Virus record (IMG/VR): IMGVR_UViG_3300022752_000462
Span: 1-21,068 of that record
Length of the DNA: 21,068 nt
Source: a virus
Reading direction: 5' to 3' (one strand)
Position 1 is the stretch's first letter. Every line of letters starts with the position of its first letter. Positions 35 to 9,559 of the stretch are shown here, piece after piece. Position numbers and translations under genes: made by a program. The notes under the pieces are model-generated. The model saw only the letters and a program-made list of their open reading frames with translations, did no database searches and was not told where the DNA came from.

Positions 35-2203
35 ATGGCGAAACTAGGAATATTTACTGGAACCTCACCAAATGATAGTACTGGAGATACTTTATCTCAA
101 GGTGCTGCAAAGATTAATAGTAATTTTAGTGAAATTTATAATGCGATTGGAGATGGGACAAATATAACAAATAGTATTGCATTTGCAAGTACTGCTGGAA
201 TTGCAACAAATGTAATTGGTGGTATTGCTTCTGTTACTACTTTTCGTGCTTCTGGTATTTCCACAGTACTTTCAAGTAATCTTAAAATTAGAAATCCAGC
301 AAATACTTTTGAATATTCAATTATTGCATCTGCAATTACTGCAGATAGAACTATTACATTACCATTAATTACTGGTTCTGATACGTTTGCAACTTTGGGT
401 CTAGGACAATCTTTTTCTGGAATATCAACATTCAGTAACTTATTTACATTATCTCAAACTACTCAAAATATTGATTTAGGAAGCACCCAAACAACAGGAA
501 CTTGGACTGCTGGTGGAACTAATCAAACTGGTTCGATAACTCTTGGTGTATCCACTAATTCCCAAACAGTTAATATTGCAACTGGAATTGGGTCAACTGG
601 AACTACAAAGACAATAAACATTGGTACTGGCAGTAGTGGAATTACAAGAATTACTGTTGGTTCTGCATCCACTCTTGGTATTGGTACTTTTGTAATCAAT
701 CCTAGAATGAATGTTGGAATTGGTTCTACAATTCCATTATATACTCTTGATGTTTCTGGTGATATTCGTTCAACTGGAACAATTTATGGCAATCTTAATG
801 GTTCAATATCAGCTGCAACAACAGCAACAAATGTCATTGGTGGTATTGGTTCCATCACTAACTTAAATGTATCTGGAATTACAACTCTTGGAATAACAAC
901 AGCATCCCAACTTCAAGTAACTGGTATTACAACATTAGCATCATTAGGTGTTACTGGACTTACTACATCTTTAAATCTTAATATTTCTGGTATTTCTACC
1001 ATAGCATCATTAGGTGTTACTGGACTTACTACATCTTTAAATCTTAATGTTTTTGGTTCTGTTGGTATAGGAACTACAAATCCAGACAAAAAGTTTGTAG
1101 TTTATGGTTCTGGTGGAAATTTTGTTTCAGAATTTTATAATACAAATAATGCTCCAAATAACAATGGAGTTTATATTCGTACACTCAATACTAATTCTAC
1201 AACTTATGTATTGAGTGTTAATAGTGGAACTGATGGTTCAAATCAAATATTGTTAGTTAGAGCAGATGGCAATATTGGAGTAGGAACAACAAATCCAACA
1301 TCTTCACTATCTGTAAATGGTTCAACGGTGATTGGAACAGAAATATTAAATATGACTGGTTTATCCAGCACATTTACAACTGTTGGAAGTAATACTTTTA
1401 TTGTTCCTGCTGGTGTAACAAAAATTTCTGCTGTATTGATTGGTGGTGGTGGAGCAGGTGGTGGTGGTTCTATTGGTGGTTCTGGTGGAGCATCTGGTGG
1501 TCCTGGAGGTCAAGGTGGTGGTGGAGGAGGATTGAGATATGTTAATGATTTCCCAGTAACTCCAGGTCAAACTCTTACTGTTATTGTTGGTGCTGGTGGA
1601 AATGGAGGAACTGGTGCTGGAGGAGATGGTGGAGATAGTTCAATAACAGGAATTGCTACAGCATTTGGTGGAAAAGGTGGTGCAGCAAATAATACAGGAA
1701 CAGCAGTTGGTACTGGTGGTGCTGGTTCTGGTGGTTCTGGTGGAGCAACTGGAGGTTCTGGTGGAACTGCAACTTTAGTTTCTGGTGCTGGTGGAGGTGG
1801 TGCTGCTGGTTATAGTGGAAATGGAGGAACTGGTGGAAATGGGTCAGTAACTAATGGTGGAGATGCTGGATCTGGTGGTGCAGCAGGTGGTGGTGGTGCT
1901 CCGAGTAATTCTGGATCTGGTGGTGGAGGAGTTGGAGTATTGGGACAAGGAACTTCTGGATCATTATCAAATGGTGTTGGAAATGCTGGTTCTGGTGGAT
2001 CAAATGGTTCACTTGGAAATGCAAATGACGGTGCTACTGGTGGATTGTTTGGTGGTGGTGGAGGTGGTGCTGATGGTAATGTTGGTTCAGTTACTAGTGG
2101 CGGAAACGGAGCACAAGGTGTTGTGAGAATTATATGGTCTCCAAGTTCCAAATTCTCAAGATTATTCCCAACAAATCAGGTTGGAAACAATATAAATCAA
2201 TAA
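35..2203 (+). CDS. Tail fibre/adhesin with gp9/gp10-like N-terminus and polyglycine C-terminal domain
   Basis: A 722-residue virion protein, probably a fibre or adhesin attached to the baseplate. Residues 1-45 include STGDTLSQGAAKINSNFSEIY, close to the TGD...GG.KIN..F..IY start shared by T4 baseplate proteins gp9 and gp10, which suggests a baseplate-anchored N-terminus. Residues about 50-450 are Ser/Thr/Gly/Ile-rich beta repeats with three GIGTTNP-like motifs near residues 223, 342 and 413, common in phage fibres, and a 22-residue duplicated unit. Near residue 456, FIVPAGVTKISAVLIGGGG opens a polyglycine domain reaching about residue 705 and closing with GGNGAQGVVRIIW. This layout is known from phage adhesins with packed polyglycine helices. 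The last 20 residues look like a tail peptide. No peptidase S74 chaperone is present. The start is the first ATG after the late box; there is no clear Shine-Dalgarno sequence. Structural role is secure, receptor binding is inferred. Confidence 0.8.
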   Translation: MAKLGIFTGTSPNDSTGDTLSQGAAKINSNFSEIYNAIGDGTNITNSIAFASTAGIATNVIGGIASVTTFRASGISTVLSSNLKIRNPANTFEYSIIASAITADRTITLPLITGSDTFATLGLGQSFSGISTFSNLFTLSQTTQNIDLGSTQTTGTWTAGGTNQTGSITLGVSTNSQTVNIATGIGSTGTTKTINIGTGSSGITRITVGSASTLGIGTFVINPRMNVGIGSTIPLYTLDVSGDIRSTGTIYGNLNGSISAATTATNVIGGIGSITNLNVSGITTLGITTASQLQVTGITTLASLGVTGLTTSLNLNISGISTIASLGVTGLTTSLNLNVFGSVGIGTTNPDKKFVVYGSGGNFVSEFYNTNNAPNNNGVYIRTLNTNSTTYVLSVNSGTDGSNQILLVRADGNIGVGTTNPTSSLSVNGSTVIGTEILNMTGLSSTFTTVGSNTFIVPAGVTKISAVLIGGGGAGGGGSIGGSGGASGGPGGQGGGGGGLRYVNDFPVTPGQTLTVIVGAGGNGGTGAGGDGGDSSITGIATAFGGKGGAANNTGTAVGTGGAGSGGSGGATGGSGGTATLVSGAGGGGAAGYSGNGGTGGNGSVTNGGDAGSGGAAGGGGAPSNSGSGGGGVGVLGQGTSGSLSNGVGNAGSGGSNGSLGNANDGATGGLFGGGGGGADGNVGSVTSGGNGAQGVVRIIWSPSSKFSRLFPTNQVGNNINQ
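936..1048 (+). repeat. 47-bp exact direct repeat within fibre gene
   Basis: Bases 936-982 recur exactly at 1002-1048, a period of 66 bases or 22 codons. The repeat encodes ASLGVTGLTTSLNLN twice and keeps the reading frame, so gain or loss of a unit by recombination would lengthen or shorten the shaft without breaking the protein. Identity at third codon positions points to a recent duplication. Confidence 0.9.
1435..2125 (+). repeat. Glycine-codon-rich, G-skewed low-complexity tract
   Basis: This stretch is dominated by GGT and GGA codons, with short GGTGGTGGT runs, in a window that is otherwise strongly AT-rich. It encodes the polyglycine domain of the fibre protein. The runs are short (about four identical triplets at most) and interrupted by GCT, TCT and AAT codons. 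The complementary strand therefore reads as long proline-rich open frames that are not genes. Confidence 0.85.
2191..2198 (+). promoter_or_regulatory. Possible late promoter box (TATAAATC) inside the end of the preceding gene
   Basis: TATAAATC differs from the T4 late consensus only in its last base and ends 20 bases before the ATG at 2219, the same spacing as the boxes ahead of 9590 and 19422. It lies within the last codons of the 722-residue fibre gene (residues NINQ). It could equally be a chance match in AT-rich coding sequence. Confidence 0.4.
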
Positions 2204-2218: not shown

Positions 2219-3364
2219 ATGGCAAACAACACAGGAACATTTTTTAACGTTAATGATAATGATGGAATACCTTTAGTTGGTGTTTCCACTGATGGTAAGG
2301 TGATGATTAATCACCTTTATGGAAATTGTTTGATTGGTTCCACATCAGTTACAGGAACCGCATCACAACCACTTCAAGTCACTGGTGGTGCTTATGTTTC
2401 TGGTAACCTTGGTATAGGAACCATAAATCCAACTGCAACTCTTGAAGTTGTTGGTAGTTTGAAAGTATCAGGAACAATTACTGGTACTGCTACAACAGCA
2501 ACTACTGCTTTTGGGTTCTCTACAACTGCTAGTATAAACACTTCTGGTATTATAACTGCTACTGGAGGTTTTGTAGGAGGTCTTACTGGTACAGCATCAA
2601 CTGCTAATAACGTAAGTTCTACTATTAATATAAACACTAGTGGAATTATAACTGCTACTGGAGGTTTTGTAGGAGGTCTTACTGGTACTGCATCCACAGC
2701 AACGGCAGCAGGAACTGCATATGGATTAACCGGAAGTCCTAATATCACTGTAGGAAACGTGACTGGTTCTGCAGCAACATTCACAAACAACTTGAATGTT
2801 GGTACTGCAATTACAATGTATAGTTCTACTGGTATTATCAGTGCCACCAAGTATTATGGTGATGGTTCCAGTTTATCTGGAATAGATGCAACAAGAATTG
2901 TTTCTGGATTATCAAGTGTAACTGTTGCAACTTCAAGTACCATTTCTGCCTATGTAAATGGTTCTAACATTTTTAATGTAACAGGAACTGGTGTTACGAT
3001 GACTTCTGGTAAGAGACTTGATGTTTCTTCTTATACAGAAAATGTAAATTTCTTGGGTTCAGTAAGTGGTAGTACTGTATTGGATGTTGGAACATATTCA
3101 GTTTTTGTTGCAGATATTTCTGGAACAACGTCAGTTACTTTCACATTAAGTGGAGCAGTTTCTGGAAGATTATCTTCTGCAACCTTAATTTTAAGATTTT
3201 CAGGAAGTGGATCCAGAAGTGTAAATTTAGCATTTAATCCAAAATATGTTGGGGGTGCTGGTCCAATATATTCTACAACAGCAGTCACGGATATTATTTC
3301 ATTCTTTACTGCGGATGCAGGAACAACCACATTTATATCTGTCGTAGGACAAGCTTTTTCATAA
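2219..3364 (+). CDS. Repeat-rich tail fibre protein
   Basis: A 381-residue probable fibre or baseplate appendage protein. After a short N-terminus (MANNTGTFFNVNDNDGIPLV), residues about 63-80 hold LGIGTINPTATLEVVGSL, the GIGT.NP..L.V.G motif of phage fibres. Two copies of SGIITATGGFVGGLTGTAST start near residues 109 and 141, each preceded by INT. Near residue 212, KYYGDGSSLSGIDATRIVSG is a motif met again and again in fibres of marine T4-like phages. Residues about 225-381 are beta-rich without detectable enzyme motifs and may form the distal tip. It lacks the polyglycine domain and the gp9/gp10-like start of its upstream neighbour. The next gene starts two bases after the stop, so the two are likely translated from one transcript. 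Function as a fibre is inferred from motifs; its position in the virion is unknown. Confidence 0.75.
   Translation: MANNTGTFFNVNDNDGIPLVGVSTDGKVMINHLYGNCLIGSTSVTGTASQPLQVTGGAYVSGNLGIGTINPTATLEVVGSLKVSGTITGTATTATTAFGFSTTASINTSGIITATGGFVGGLTGTASTANNVSSTININTSGIITATGGFVGGLTGTASTATAAGTAYGLTGSPNITVGNVTGSAATFTNNLNVGTAITMYSSTGIISATKYYGDGSSLSGIDATRIVSGLSSVTVATSSTISAYVNGSNIFNVTGTGVTMTSGKRLDVSSYTENVNFLGSVSGSTVLDVGTYSVFVADISGTTSVTFTLSGAVSGRLSSATLILRFSGSGSRSVNLAFNPKYVGGAGPIYSTTAVTDIISFFTADAGTTTFISVVGQAFS
2549..2688 (+). repeat. 44-bp exact direct repeat within second fibre gene
   Basis: Bases 2549-2592 recur exactly at 2645-2688, a period of 96 bases or 32 codons, encoding the repeated IITATGGFVGGLTGT segment. 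Similar flanking bases (ATAAACACT) extend the unit imperfectly upstream. The repeat is in frame and could change fibre length by recombination. Confidence 0.9.
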
Positions 3365-3366
3365 TT

Positions 3367-4509
3367 ATGTTTAATAAAGCAACATTATTTGGTGGATCTT
3401 TTACTAAGGTTTATACACCCACAATCACATCACCAACAGCAAGTCAACTTTTAAATACAAGAACACCAACAATTACATCAAGTGCTTTTTCGAAGTATGG
3501 TAATATAACTCATGCATCAACTGATTGGCAAGTTTCTGATTCTTCTGATTTTAATACAATTCGTTGGTTGTCAGTAAATGATTCAACAAATAAAATATCA
3601 ATCACTTCTACTGATTTAAAAGGTGGAAATCGTTACGTAAGAGTTAGACATAAGGCAAGTAATGGAAATTATAGTGATTGGTCTGACCCAATTTTATTTA
3701 CTATTCCAGTACAAACACCAGTGGTTTTATTTACAAGCAACCTTTCGTCAACACATAATCGAACAGCGGGAGATAGTTCGAGTTTTAGTGTTGATGTTGT
3801 AGATGCCGATAATACAAATGCCACTAATACGATTTCATATCAATGGTATTTGAGTACTGATGGTGGTAATAATTATTCTCCAATTTCTGGAAAAACAACT
3901 AATACTTTAGATCGTTATTCAACATTTTATCGTAGTGATAATGGACATAAAATTAAATGCAGAGTATCTATTACGAATTCTGTAGGTAGCAATTCTGCTG
4001 ATTCTGAGGTTTGTACTTTAACAGTTGCAAGAAATTATGATTGCAATAGTTCAACAGTAACGGGAACTCAAAGTTTTGGAAGTGGTTTGAAACCATCTAC
4101 GAATGGAAATGGAGATGAACAATGGTGGGAATGGTCTCCGGGGTATAGTGATATATGTTCTATTGATGGAAACTTAAGTAGCTTTAATGCTAAAGGTAGA
4201 TTTTGTAATTGGAATATGGAACTTGAATTAAGAATTACAAAATCTACTGGTGATGGAGGTAGAGTACATTGGGGGTCTCAACAAAAATCTGGTTCTCAAC
4301 AAAATTATCAAACTTTTGATAACGTTAAAGCAAATGGTGGAGTATGGAATCCAAATAATGATGGAACGCCAACTTATCGACTTATGGTAATTGACAATGG
4401 CACAAATTGTACAAATAATTCTTCGCAAGATATTGGTTGCGAATCTGGTGCTATAACTTTGAATTATTCTTACAAAAGAGCAAATCTTTATTTTGAAACA
4501 CGACCATAA
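3367..4509 (+). CDS. Virion surface protein with FN3-like and Ig-like domains and a Cys-rich C-terminal domain
   Basis: A 380-residue probable virion decoration or adhesin protein. Residues about 20-118 resemble a fibronectin-type domain, with TDWQVSDSSDF near 52-62 and YVRVRHKASNGNYSDWSD near 90-107. Residues about 119-218 look Ig-like, with the buried-Trp strand TISYQWYLSTDGG near 155 and HKIKCRVSITNSVGS near 195-209. Residues about 219-380 form an unrecognised domain containing WWEWSPGY, CNWNMELELRI and RVHWGSQQ. Seven cysteines (198, 216, 226, 264, 280, 348, 358) are far more than in neighbouring virion proteins. No signal peptide or membrane segment is visible. It starts two bases after the preceding stop and probably shares its transcript. 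Ig and FN3 domains on phages often mediate weak carbohydrate binding; that function is inferred here and no close family is recognised. Confidence 0.65.
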   Translation: MFNKATLFGGSFTKVYTPTITSPTASQLLNTRTPTITSSAFSKYGNITHASTDWQVSDSSDFNTIRWLSVNDSTNKISITSTDLKGGNRYVRVRHKASNGNYSDWSDPILFTIPVQTPVVLFTSNLSSTHNRTAGDSSSFSVDVVDADNTNATNTISYQWYLSTDGGNNYSPISGKTTNTLDRYSTFYRSDNGHKIKCRVSITNSVGSNSADSEVCTLTVARNYDCNSSTVTGTQSFGSGLKPSTNGNGDEQWWEWSPGYSDICSIDGNLSSFNAKGRFCNWNMELELRITKSTGDGGRVHWGSQQKSGSQQNYQTFDNVKANGGVWNPNNDGTPTYRLMVIDNGTNCTNNSSQDIGCESGAITLNYSYKRANLYFETRP

Positions 4510-4552: not shown

Positions 4553-7500
4553 ATGCGAACAGTTCCAGGGTCAGGTGCAGTTCTTAAACCAGAATTTGAA
4601 CTACCGTTTTATTCTGTGTCAAAAATTTATGTAATCGATGGTGGTTCTGGATATGCTTCAACAAATCCACCAAAAATTACAATACAAGATACTGTAACTC
4701 CAGTGATAGAAGGAGTTTTCTATCCTGTAATTTCTGGTAGTTCTATTCAAAGTGTAAAGGTAATTAGTGGTGGATCTGGGTATTATCCAATATCATCAGA
4801 AAGTCAAACAAGAATTGGTATTGGTACAACATCTTTAGTTGAATCACAATTTGTGACTAAAGAATATGGTGCTGGAATTATAATGGGAGTAAGTGGTGGT
4901 ATTGGAAGTGCAATATTTGAGAATGGATATAATGTAGCAATCAGTACTACAATTACTGGTATATCAACTTTAATACCAAATGCGTCAAGTCGCATTTATG
5001 GATTTGGAAATCCAATTCCATCAACTACGTCTGGAATTGGAACTGGAGCAACATTTGAAGTTTGGATTACTTATGATGGTTCGGTAACTGGAAATCCAAT
5101 TTCAACATCTATTATTCTCAAAGATGGTGGAAGAGGATATGGAATAGGAAATACAGTTTCAATTGCTGGAACTTATCTTGGAGGAACAAATCCAACCAAT
5201 ACATTATCATTCAAAGTATCTAAAGTTTCTAGTACATCAATAGTATCGGCAGCAAATTCAACATATACTGGTATTGCTGGTTCTACAATAGTTGGTGTTG
5301 GTTCTGGTGCAAAATTTAATATATCAAGAGATTCTTTGGGAAAAATTAGTTCAGTTGAAATTGCAAATGGAGGAAGATATTATAATGTTGGAAGTCAAAC
5401 TGATGGATCTTTGACGGATATTATCAGTATTGCTGGAACATCTATTGGTGGTTCTACACCAGCAGATAATTTATATCTTTCACCAACACTTTTGGGAACT
5501 GATATTTTACCAAAAATTTTATATGTTGATAAGTTAGATGATAACCAATTTAAAGTATCTGGACTATCTACTTCTTTTGATTTGGATATTAAAAATTATG
5601 GAATTGGAACTCATTCATTTGCATATCCTGAACCAAATTCAAGTTCCTTAATTACGATTGATAATATCATTCAATCACCTTTATATAGAAGAGGAATTAC
5701 ATTATATCCATCAAAAGCAATTGGAATTGGAAATACAATTTACTTAAGATCTGGTATTTCATCATTAACATCTTTGGATGTTTTGATGATAGATTCCGAA
5801 TTAATGAAGGTCAGATCAGTTGGAATTGGTTCAACTAATAGTGTTATTGTAGATAGAGCATATTATGGGACAGTTGCTGCAGCACATACTGTTGGAGCAG
5901 CAGTTACTGTAATGAGAGGTGATTTTAATATTGTTAAAGATACAATTTATTTTACTGATCCACCATATGGAAAAATAGGACAAGAAAGTTTACAAGTAAA
6001 CTCATCATTTCAAGGAAGAATTTTTTCAAGAAGATTTGATCCAGGAAAACCATCAGATAAAAATTTAATTATTGATGATATTTCTAAAGATTTTATTGGA
6101 AAAACAATTTCTGTAGGAATTAAAACAGGAACTCTAAATTCTTCAACCAAAAATATAATTAGTGGAATTGATACAACATCTTTAAGTTTAGGAGATGTTT
6201 TAAATTTACAATATACCGAAAATCAATATATTATAAGAAATACAGTTATTCAATCTATAGGTGTTGGGTCAATTACCATTTCCCCAAATCATAATGTAAA
6301 TACTGGAATTGCTACAACAACATTCAATATTACAAATTTGAACTTTGTATTAAAATCAAATGGTGAAAGTATATCTGGATTATATTCTAACATCAACAGC
6401 AAATCAAGTATAAACAATAATCCATTTATTTTATTAAATAATGTTTCTCAAATATCTGATAGTGATTTTATTATTGATACTGAAGGAAATAATACTATTA
6501 AATTTGTAAGTGGTGTTCCAAATGCTGGAAAAATTGTTAGGGTTGCAATTACTACTGGATATGGTTATCAACCACTTGTAGGTGCTTCTGCAACAGTTTC
6601 TGTATCTGCTGCTGGCACAATATCAAATATTTATTTAACTGGTGCTGGAAGTGGTTATAGAACTGATCCAGTAATTAGTGTCGCATCCACAATTGGTAGT
6701 GGTGCTACGATTACTGCTTCAATTGGATCTGGAGGAACAATCACTTCATTGAGTATTATAAATCCAGGTTCTGGATATACAACTGCTGCAAAACCAATTA
6801 TCAAAATACCAATTCCATCAAATTATAGTAATCTTGGTGTTGCTTATGCTAATGGTTCTAGTGGTGTCGGAGAAGGAGCAAAGGTTTCTGTTATTGTAAG
6901 TAATGGGTCTAGTATTACTGGATTTACGTTAGAAGATCCTGGATATGGTTATAAAGTTGGTGAGGTATTAAAAGTCGTTGGTATTACTACAAATCCATCA
7001 GTTGGAGCAGGATTTAGTGAATTTAGAATGACAGTACAAGAAACATTTACAGACAAATTTAGTGGATTTTATCCAGGTCAATTTGTTAGGATTGATAGTC
7101 TTGCACCATATTTTACTGGGAAAAAACGTAAATTCATATTGACCTTTACATATCTTGGTACAACAGAAACTTTTTCAGTAAGAACAGATCCAAATTCGGA
7201 TTTAAAAGTTGGAAATAACTTTTTTGTTTTTATAAATGATATTTTACAAAAACCAGAAGAATCTTATAAAATAATTGGTTCACGAATAATTTTCAATGAA
7301 GCACCAAAACCAAATTCAAAATGTTTAATTTTATATTATAGAGGATCAGATTTAGATGTAGAACAAGTAGATCCACCAAAAACAATTAAAGAAGGTGATT
7401 CCATTCAAATTGGAGAAAATATATTAGATCCATATGATAGAGAACAATTTGAACGTGTTGTTAAAAAAATTGTTTCTTTTGATAGTTTTGATACATTTCC

Positions 7501-9559
7501 TTACGATAGTATTGGAATTAATACTGACCCCAAAAAAGCAAGACCCCTCAAATGGACCAAACAAACACGAGATAGAGTTATTAATGGTGTTTTGTATTCA
7601 AAAGGAAGACCAGATTTAAAATCAAGAAATACACCAACAACAAGAATTATCAAATCGGTATCAAAAAATGATAATATCATATATGTAAATAATGCTTTTC
7701 CATTATTTGTAGAAGATATTGGAAGAGGATTAACAGAAGAATTGAGAGATATTATTATTCTCGACAATAAAACAGTTGACTCTGCATCTGGAACTACAGT
7801 TATTTCTGCTGCATCAACTGTTTCAAATATAACAATTACAAATTCTGGTTCTGGTTATCAAGTTGCAAATCCAACGGTTGCAATTTCTTCGGCATTTATA
7901 ACAAGAAAGGATCCAATTTATAATTGGAAAGGGACTTCTGGAATAACTACAAATTATGAAATAAAATCAATTACTTATGGAAATATTTTTGTTGGTGTTG
8001 GAACAAGCAGTCTTTTGGTTAAAAGTATAGATGGAACTTCTTGGTCGGATAGCAGTATTGGATATGGAAATTCAATAACATTCAATTCTGTTGCATTTGC
8101 AGGAACAAACACATATGTTGCTGTGGGTCAAACTGGAAAAATCATAACAGCAACTGCAATTGGAACTTCAGTATCTTCTTGGATTGAATGTAAATTGACT
8201 AATAGAACTATTGAATTTGTTAGTGACATCGTAACTGATACACCTAGCACATATAATGGTGAATTTAAAGATATTTCTTATTCTTCATCAAAAAATACTT
8301 TTGTTGTTGTTGGTAAAATTTCAAATTATAACCAAATATCTCCAATTTTTACTGCAGTTGGAATTGGATCTACACAATTTTTTGAAAAAAATAAAACAAA
8401 TATAAAAAATCTAAATTCTATTGCAAATAATAATAATATTTTCATTATAGTTGGTGATGATGGAACAATTTATTATTCATTTGATACTGAAAATTGGTCT
8501 GTTGTTGGGGATTTATCAAAACCAACTACTCAAAAATTGAATAAAATTATTTGGGATGGGACAAACTTTGTTGCAGTTGGAAATAATGCAGCAATTATAA
8601 CATCTCAAAATGGAATAAATTGGGTTTTGCAACCTGGTGTAAACATTACAAATAATTTAACAAATATAAACTACTATGATGGTGTTTATGTTGTATTGGA
8701 TGATAATGGCAATTTATATTATTCATTAGATTTATCAAATTGGGAACAAAGATCAACAAATCAATCAAATGCTATTAAAGATTTAATTTTTGTTCCATCA
8801 CTAAGTTATGAAGGAAGATATATTGTAGTTGGTTCTGCTGCAACAATTATGTATTCAGAACCAATTTATAATAGAGCAACAGCAACATCTTCAACCACAA
8901 ACGGTATTGTAACTTCGGTAACAATTACAAATGGTGGATTTGGTTATTCCCAAACAAATGTTCCTCCTGTTATTTTTGAAAGTCCAAAACCAAATAGAGA
9001 GAAGGTTTATTCAATAAAAGCAAAAGGTGATTTTGGAACTATAATTGGTATTAATACAATAGGAATTGGAGCATCTTCTTTAGAATTTAAATTAAAATCA
9101 GAAACTTATGATAATGCCAATCTTGGTATTGGATATTCATCACTTGATAAGTTTGGAGTAACATATAGTCAATTGGAACAAGGTGATTACTTTGTAATTT
9201 TTGATAGTAATGTAACTTCTGGATATGCTTTAACAGGAATAACAACTACTACTGGAATTAGAGTTGGAACAGCAACTTCATTTATTGATGGTCTCTATAG
9301 AGTAGAAAATGTTACAACTCCATCATCTGGCATAGTAACTGTCAGATGTGATTTTGTTCCTGTTAATGGTGGTATAGATAAAGCATTAAATCTTGGAATC
9401 AATACAACTGGATTTTATGGAAGATATACTTGGAGTAAAATATATGATTATCAAAATAGAGCAAGAGAAAATCCAAAAGACTTTGTTGTAAATACAAATG
9501 ATGGATTGTCTGGATTATCCACAGCAGCAGAAATTTATAGAACTCGTGGTTTAATTTAG
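4553..9559 (+). CDS. Large virion structural protein (gp7 position) with GxGY repeats and beta-propeller
   Basis: A 1668-residue structural protein immediately upstream of gp8, where T4 has wedge gene 7 (1032 residues); I see no clear sequence match to gp7, so equivalence is positional. GxGY modules (for example VIDGGSGYAS near 30, TGAGSGYRTDP near 695, TNSGSGYQVANP near 1095, TNGGFGYSQTN near 1458) recur about ten times. Residues about 382-457 form an IDSELMKV...RAYYGT...H module also found in the 2479-residue protein. Residues about 825-940 (VFINDILQKPEESYKI, then IIFNEAPKPNSKCLILYYRG) resemble a motif common in phage tail fibres. Residues about 1125-1440 contain seven evenly spaced (G/N)xFVxVG strands with Asp-box-like SxDGxxW turns, indicating a beta-propeller. 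The C-terminus is YGRYTWSKIYDYQNRARENP with RTRGLI. A gp7-like wedge, arm or peripheral attachment role is inference. Confidence 0.75.
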   Translation: MRTVPGSGAVLKPEFELPFYSVSKIYVIDGGSGYASTNPPKITIQDTVTPVIEGVFYPVISGSSIQSVKVISGGSGYYPISSESQTRIGIGTTSLVESQFVTKEYGAGIIMGVSGGIGSAIFENGYNVAISTTITGISTLIPNASSRIYGFGNPIPSTTSGIGTGATFEVWITYDGSVTGNPISTSIILKDGGRGYGIGNTVSIAGTYLGGTNPTNTLSFKVSKVSSTSIVSAANSTYTGIAGSTIVGVGSGAKFNISRDSLGKISSVEIANGGRYYNVGSQTDGSLTDIISIAGTSIGGSTPADNLYLSPTLLGTDILPKILYVDKLDDNQFKVSGLSTSFDLDIKNYGIGTHSFAYPEPNSSSLITIDNIIQSPLYRRGITLYPSKAIGIGNTIYLRSGISSLTSLDVLMIDSELMKVRSVGIGSTNSVIVDRAYYGTVAAAHTVGAAVTVMRGDFNIVKDTIYFTDPPYGKIGQESLQVNSSFQGRIFSRRFDPGKPSDKNLIIDDISKDFIGKTISVGIKTGTLNSSTKNIISGIDTTSLSLGDVLNLQYTENQYIIRNTVIQSIGVGSITISPNHNVNTGIATTTFNITNLNFVLKSNGESISGLYSNINSKSSINNNPFILLNNVSQISDSDFIIDTEGNNTIKFVSGVPNAGKIVRVAITTGYGYQPLVGASATVSVSAAGTISNIYLTGAGSGYRTDPVISVASTIGSGATITASIGSGGTITSLSIINPGSGYTTAAKPIIKIPIPSNYSNLGVAYANGSSGVGEGAKVSVIVSNGSSITGFTLEDPGYGYKVGEVLKVVGITTNPSVGAGFSEFRMTVQETFTDKFSGFYPGQFVRIDSLAPYFTGKKRKFILTFTYLGTTETFSVRTDPNSDLKVGNNFFVFINDILQKPEESYKIIGSRIIFNEAPKPNSKCLILYYRGSDLDVEQVDPPKTIKEGDSIQIGENILDPYDREQFERVVKKIVSFDSFDTFPYDSIGINTDPKKARPLKWTKQTRDRVINGVLYSKGRPDLKSRNTPTTRIIKSVSKNDNIIYVNNAFPLFVEDIGRGLTEELRDIIILDNKTVDSASGTTVISAASTVSNITITNSGSGYQVANPTVAISSAFITRKDPIYNWKGTSGITTNYEIKSITYGNIFVGVGTSSLLVKSIDGTSWSDSSIGYGNSITFNSVAFAGTNTYVAVGQTGKIITATAIGTSVSSWIECKLTNRTIEFVSDIVTDTPSTYNGEFKDISYSSSKNTFVVVGKISNYNQISPIFTAVGIGSTQFFEKNKTNIKNLNSIANNNNIFIIVGDDGTIYYSFDTENWSVVGDLSKPTTQKLNKIIWDGTNFVAVGNNAAIITSQNGINWVLQPGVNITNNLTNINYYDGVYVVLDDNGNLYYSLDLSNWEQRSTNQSNAIKDLIFVPSLSYEGRYIVVGSAATIMYSEPIYNRATATSSTTNGIVTSVTITNGGFGYSQTNVPPVIFESPKPNREKVYSIKAKGDFGTIIGINTIGIGASSLEFKLKSETYDNANLGIGYSSLDKFGVTYSQLEQGDYFVIFDSNVTSGYALTGITTTTGIRVGTATSFIDGLYRVENVTTPSSGIVTVRCDFVPVNGGIDKALNLGINTTGFYGRYTWSKIYDYQNRARENPKDFVVNTNDGLSGLSTAAEIYRTRGLI

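Follow-up and report, generated by a model that had tools for sequence, protein, structure and literature searches.

Results

A cysteine-rich protein between fibre and baseplate genes

We wondered what a small, cysteine-rich protein encoded between the fibre and baseplate genes of a virus might contribute, given that the other proteins of this virus hold little cysteine. The window analyzed here comprises positions 1 to 21,068 of the IMG/VR record IMGVR_UViG_3300022752_000462, and the protein in question, ORF3, is encoded on the plus strand at positions 3367-4509 (380 aa). A preliminary description had proposed that its cysteines might stabilize a host-binding tip through disulfides formed after lysis or might bind a metal. 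Translation and counting confirmed seven cysteines at residues 198, 216, 226, 264, 280, 348 and 358, five of them within residues 222-380, as well as the counts reported for two other proteins, none in ORF1 (722 aa) and three in a protein of 1668 aa. The motifs WWEWSPGY, CNWN and VHWG were likewise all found in the ORF3 translation. The window as a whole is poor in cysteine: excluding the gene cut by its end, the nine other complete ORFs counted hold 17 cysteines in 6292 aa (0.27%). At this level about 1.0 cysteine is expected in the 380 aa of ORF3 (Poisson P for at least seven = 1e-4) and 0.43 in its 159-aa C-terminal domain (P for at least five = 9e-5, for a domain picked post hoc). In 58 gp7-family loci, 52 non-redundant ORFs measured 150 aa or more, and none reached the 1.84% cysteine of ORF3. 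Relatives of ORF3 are adjoined in their own contigs by genes that are also rich in cysteine (5-6 in 262 aa and 14 in 949 aa), so the content of ORF3 is not clearly exceptional.

The genes around ORF3 belong to a tail and baseplate module. Upstream, ORF1 (35..2203, plus strand) encodes a Gly-rich fibre- or connector-like protein (phrog_4474, E 1.7e-27; phrog_677, E 9.7e-14). Downstream lies the gene for a gp7-like baseplate wedge protein (4553..9559, plus strand; phrog_2885, E 1.1e-158), for which there are 58 related loci. Further flank genes encode a gp8-like wedge protein (phrog_438, PF09215) and the head-tail adaptor Ad2 (phrog_211). Of 11 records with DNA matches, 10 are Synechococcus phages, and none covers more than 8% of the window; a cyanophage-like virus is therefore likely, host assignment aside.

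The stretch between ORF1 and gp7, here called the slot, was tabulated for 23 of the 58 gp7-family loci. Homologs of ORF1 sit upstream of it in related loci, and its content varies widely among the 23: six contain only an ORF2 stub of 90-118 aa, and others carry long versions of ORF2, ORF2 together with a gene of about 144 aa, or subtilase-family genes. The latter take the same position before gp7 as ORF3 (L019:2678-4348, L020:6729-8399, L021:847-2517 and L027:5625-8735). Pfam scans of L019 and L027 found Peptidase_S8 in both (E 5.4e-27 and 5e-17, respectively); L020 is near-identical to L019, and L021 was assigned to the L019/L020 type by its identical length and its cysteine and tryptophan counts. 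This setting of ORF3 fits the hypervariable host recognition cluster of cyano- and pelagimyophages, described in PMC7029224 as a tail-fibre island among the structural genes of T4-like aquatic phages. The published island lies between VrlC and gp14 and the slot between ORF1 and gp7, the two being likened by description.

The C-terminal domain of ORF3 has no family of its own in the collections searched

From its first domain to its last, ORF3 is built of an FN3-like, an Ig-like and an orphan domain. The FN3/Ig-like N-terminal domain (residues 1-116; 3367..3714, plus strand) gave a weak Pfam match to PF25788 below the cut-off (E 0.022) and aligned to a domain in the peptidase S8 gene of S-BM3 (37% over 90 aa). 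The Ig-like domain (residues 117-221; 3715..4029, plus strand), which contains C198 and C216, matches phrog_25852 (E 9.8e-08), phrog_27200 (E 6e-07) and the Ig-like domains of cyanophages; PF19081 (Ig_7) scored 17.3 bits (E 0.0059), under its cut-off of 27.3. The S-BM3 gene (L066, 1-6092) is very large, carries repeated Ig/FN3-like domains related to the N-terminal and Ig-like domains of ORF3 and has a tail-fibre-like gene nearby; in contrast to its product, ORF3 has no protease domain detectable with Pfam. The third domain (residues 222-380; 4030..4506, plus strand), with C226, C264, C280, C348 and C358, matched nothing in Pfam, PDB sequences or the phage collection. An NCBIfam scan of the whole of ORF3 returned nothing, and the copy of the domain in L002, a related contig, had no PHROGs match; its single phage-collection row (E 7) was taken as chance. 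Calling this domain unrecognised was correct as far as Pfam, PDB and the phage collection are concerned, apart from the phrog_27200 match, which covers residues 148-253 and extends about 30 residues into it.

The Ig-like domain raises the possibility that ORF3 is a Hoc-like decoration protein, serving general glycan adhesion and not the binding of a specific receptor. The match to phrog_25852, a head/virion structural family, points in this direction, as does a match of the L002 relative to the Hoc-like phrog_4069 (E 0.021). However, ORF3 is flanked by a fibre gene on one side and a baseplate gene on the other and co-occurs with a particular fibre end (see below), and the Pfam and PHROGs scans revealed no capsid-binding domain. 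We consider a Hoc-like role unlikely.

Conserved cysteines are compatible with disulfides

Among 62 loci, of which L001 is the window itself, only L002, L003 and L004 matched ORF3 (E up to 0.01). The only relatives found for the C-terminal domain come from three IMG/VR contigs and are about 62% identical. The orphan domain drew no match in genome contigs or, when used as a single sequence, in viral contigs; a back-translated motif found the three known contigs and two other matches, both in short frames and put down to chance. L004 has the same metagenome number, 3300023174, as L010, a contig of the gp7 family, which may point to a common habitat of the two lineages. The relatives of ORF3 are 605 aa long, and L002 is 71, 65 and 63% identical to ORF3 in the N-terminal, Ig-like and C-terminal domains, respectively. 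They carry about 225 extra residues between the FN3 and Ig domains, an insert (231 residues opposite gaps, 36% Gly) that the window copy lacks and because of which the family resembles a modular adhesin.

Six of the seven cysteines are kept in the relatives, two in the Ig-like and four in the orphan domain, and C358 is replaced by Ala. At 62% identity this is not significant (P 0.19). Nine of ten tryptophans are kept in L002 (P 0.06), W254 being replaced by Gly. As L002-L004 are nearly identical, residue conservation effectively represents one comparison. A related Ig-like domain was identified in six phage loci. Both C198 and C216 are present in one of them, Escherichia phage KMB41; as aligned, L067, L068 and L070 have C198 only and L066 and L069 have neither. 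The KMB41 pair makes a C198-C216 bond within the Ig-like domain plausible, and cysteine conservation lends mild support to disulfides in ORF3, which likewise appear plausible from the alignments. The tail and baseplate context, the even number of conserved cysteines and the lack of a CxxC motif are in favor of an adhesin with disulfides. We propose that, once the virion has left the cell, the conserved cysteines most probably pair in structural disulfides, C198 with C216 and the other four, C226, C264, C280 and C348, in two further bonds. According to PMC11821841, disulfides link the fibres and baseplate of Pam3; the main text of the Pam3 fibre paper PMC9608196 does not contain the terms disulfide, cysteine or Cys.

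Two other explanations concern the cysteines only. They may be ordinary core residues of beta folds without any special role, a view to which the non-significant conservation lends itself and which we rate as possible but rather improbable, since the cysteine content of ORF3 lies far above the window's own level. Metal binding, the other option of the preliminary description, is not favored: four cysteines are kept in the C-terminal domain, but ORF3 contains no CxxC motif or close pair, the nearest two cysteines being 10 residues apart and all spacings at least that wide. We regard coordination of a metal ion as very improbable.

A low-confidence model points to a beta jelly-roll

Single-sequence AF2 prediction of the whole of ORF3 gave a mean pLDDT of 32.9. 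Prediction of residues 222-380 from four sequences gave a weak model consisting mostly of strands (pLDDT 61.6, pTM 0.56). When this model was ranked with VIA-align, TNF-like lectins came first (Z 8.2-8.6; rmsd 3.2-4.6 with 115-121 aligned residues and 5-13% identity), including the N-terminal domain of BC2L-C and PLTL, at Z values that barely exceed what the tool regards as common. Chains from capsids, furin-type proteins and phage spikes came next at Z 7-8, a range rated as common. Many of these chains are jelly-rolls, and on this low-confidence model the C-terminal domain is likely a beta jelly-roll. That it might be a lectin is a lead from the fold, and sugar binding is a lead that draws on the kept tryptophans together with the weak resemblance to TNF-like lectins. 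Several candidates were set aside: Pgp3 rows at the top of the Foldseek results had rmsd above 10 and TM 0.15-0.29; BFVD rows were mixed (collagen-like, capsid, tail and tail-spike; best TM 0.55 among the 50 matches listed) and were not used; and a link to the P-domain of subtilases, prompted by Furin- and Kex2-type rows (Z 7.1-7.8), was dropped because P_proprotein has no match in the window.

The end of the upstream fibre co-occurs with ORF3

ORF2, the gene directly before ORF3, has two parts. Residues 1-200 (2219..2818, plus strand) form a fibre base, the first 113 aa, and a repeat shaft, and are common to phages that lack ORF3; the base is 66-81% identical in the closer gp7-family loci and less so elsewhere. 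The shaft region contains direct repeats of 80 nt, 96 bp apart and 89% identical (window 2525-2700). A 72-bp stretch of ORF2 (window 2350-2421) is 95.8% identical to the tail fibre gene of Synechococcus phage S-SRM01; short near-identical stretches of this kind could be recombination sites. Residues 201-381 (2819..3361, plus strand) form a terminal domain that the ORF3-bearing contigs have in common. The last ~180 aa (residues 205-381) strongly match L002, L003 and L004 only (52-55%), matches to other loci being weak (E 6e-07 or worse). In all three contigs the relative of the ORF2 end lies directly upstream of the ORF3 relative and its stop overlaps the ORF3 start; in the window the two genes are 2 bp apart.

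Scanning with an alignment of the fibre end produced 121 pattern matches, among which L002, L003 and L004 were the only relatives, and it found no contig that carries the fibre end without ORF3. Because the alignments of the fibre end and of ORF3 both derive from the window and L002-L004, recovering these contigs is by construction, and only the absence of further ones informs. A single-sequence scan with the ORF2 terminal domain returned nothing and missed even L002-L004, so absence in scans of this kind is weak evidence. The gene setting of ORF3 in L002-L004 differs from that in the window: in the ORF3-bearing contigs it is clustered with genes for a gp5-like hub (identified in L064) and a phrog_529 fibre (identified in L063), and no gp7 adjoins ORF3 in their available stretches. 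We infer from the sequence comparison that the fibre end and ORF3 have moved together, the junction lying within ORF2 close to the repeats. Such joint transfer would ensure that the fibre keeps a fitting tip.

A gene directly downstream of a fibre gene often encodes a chaperone (T4 gp38, Tfa). The position of ORF3 immediately after the fibre gene and its occurrence together with the fibre end would also be expected of a chaperone that is specific to this fibre, helps it fold or assemble and remains bound at its end. We judge this improbable, to the same degree as a Hoc-like role, as the multidomain FN3-Ig build with its variable Gly-rich insert resembles a surface adhesin more closely, and Pfam and PHROGs scans of ORF3 and L002 found no chaperone family.

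Similar fibre ends in other phages are directly followed by another gene

The ORF2 end matches the tail fibre family phrog_7760 (E 3.3e-05, profile positions 90-218 of 223). The corresponding L002 fibre (L002:5282-5980) matched no PHROG family at E up to 1, so this link rests on the window copy. Residues ~235-376 of ORF2 also aligned to the fibre end of Salmonella phage KE23 (pairwise E 8e-08 in a single comparison). We inspected eight phages, namely KE23, SP40 and six chosen as diverse among the matches listed (40 of 510 records); some of the eight, namely KE23 and SP40, are closely related. Without exception, the gene that follows begins within -4 to +5 bp of the phrog_7760-type fibre end. 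Its product is annotated as a tail protein in five phages and as hypothetical in two; in SP40, it is a structural protein of 345 aa. The position of the next gene, together with the coupling, suggests that phrog_7760-type fibre ends are sockets for a separately encoded tip protein. The KE23 gene after the fibre encodes 929 aa (phrog_2871) and is unrelated to ORF3 by BLASTP (best E 1.2), so the likeness is one of arrangement only. This KE23 tail protein (L080:4315-7101) matched a GH127 catalytic domain below the cut-off (E 0.021).

Discussion

Our preferred reading, to which we give roughly an even chance of being right, is that ORF3 serves as an adhesin at the tip of the fibre, docked on ORF2 and encoded in a hypervariable host-recognition slot. 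Gene order, inheritance shared with the fibre end and the hypervariable slot lend indirect support to the host-binding tip proposed in the preliminary description. Separately encoded, ORF3 would dock on the terminal domain of ORF2, probably via its FN3-like N-terminus, while the Ig-like spacer and the predicted beta jelly-roll head would face the host surface; the ORF2 terminal domain and ORF3 would pass between phages as one cassette. Counting against an adhesin are the weak structure model and the gene following the fibre in SP40, which encodes just 345 aa. We would go further only tentatively: the C-terminal domain may found a new family of disulfide-stabilized, sugar-binding jelly-roll fibre heads in cyanophage-like viruses that are exchanged together with the fibre socket domain, an extension we find doubtful.

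Known systems offer partial parallels. In phages with phrog_7760-type fibres (Vequintavirinae and others, such as KE23), the fibre end is like that of ORF2 and the next gene follows immediately; that gene usually encodes a large tail protein. In T-even phages, gp37 is the distal fibre and gp38 the adhesin. Like ORF3 in our reading, gp38 is modular, exchanged and encoded by a separate gene directly after the fibre. It is not known to contain FN3 or Ig domains, and its polyglycine-II sandwich has a possible counterpart only in the Gly-rich insert of the ORF3 relatives, which is absent from the window copy. No gp38-named family was found for ORF3 or its L002 relative in Pfam or PHROGs, libraries that presumably hold the gp38 family. 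According to PMC3797505, gp37 and gp38 are shuffled often. Taken together, the C-terminal domain of ORF3 is an orphan in the collections searched, and its setting looks like that of known exchangeable fibre-tip adhesins.

In T4-like aquatic phages, the tips that bind the receptor are difficult to spot by sequence. If our reading is true, looking for a fibre-terminal domain and the next gene as a cassette would be a simple rule for finding tip adhesins, and it would reach adhesins such as ORF3, whose head domain is missed by the family models used here.
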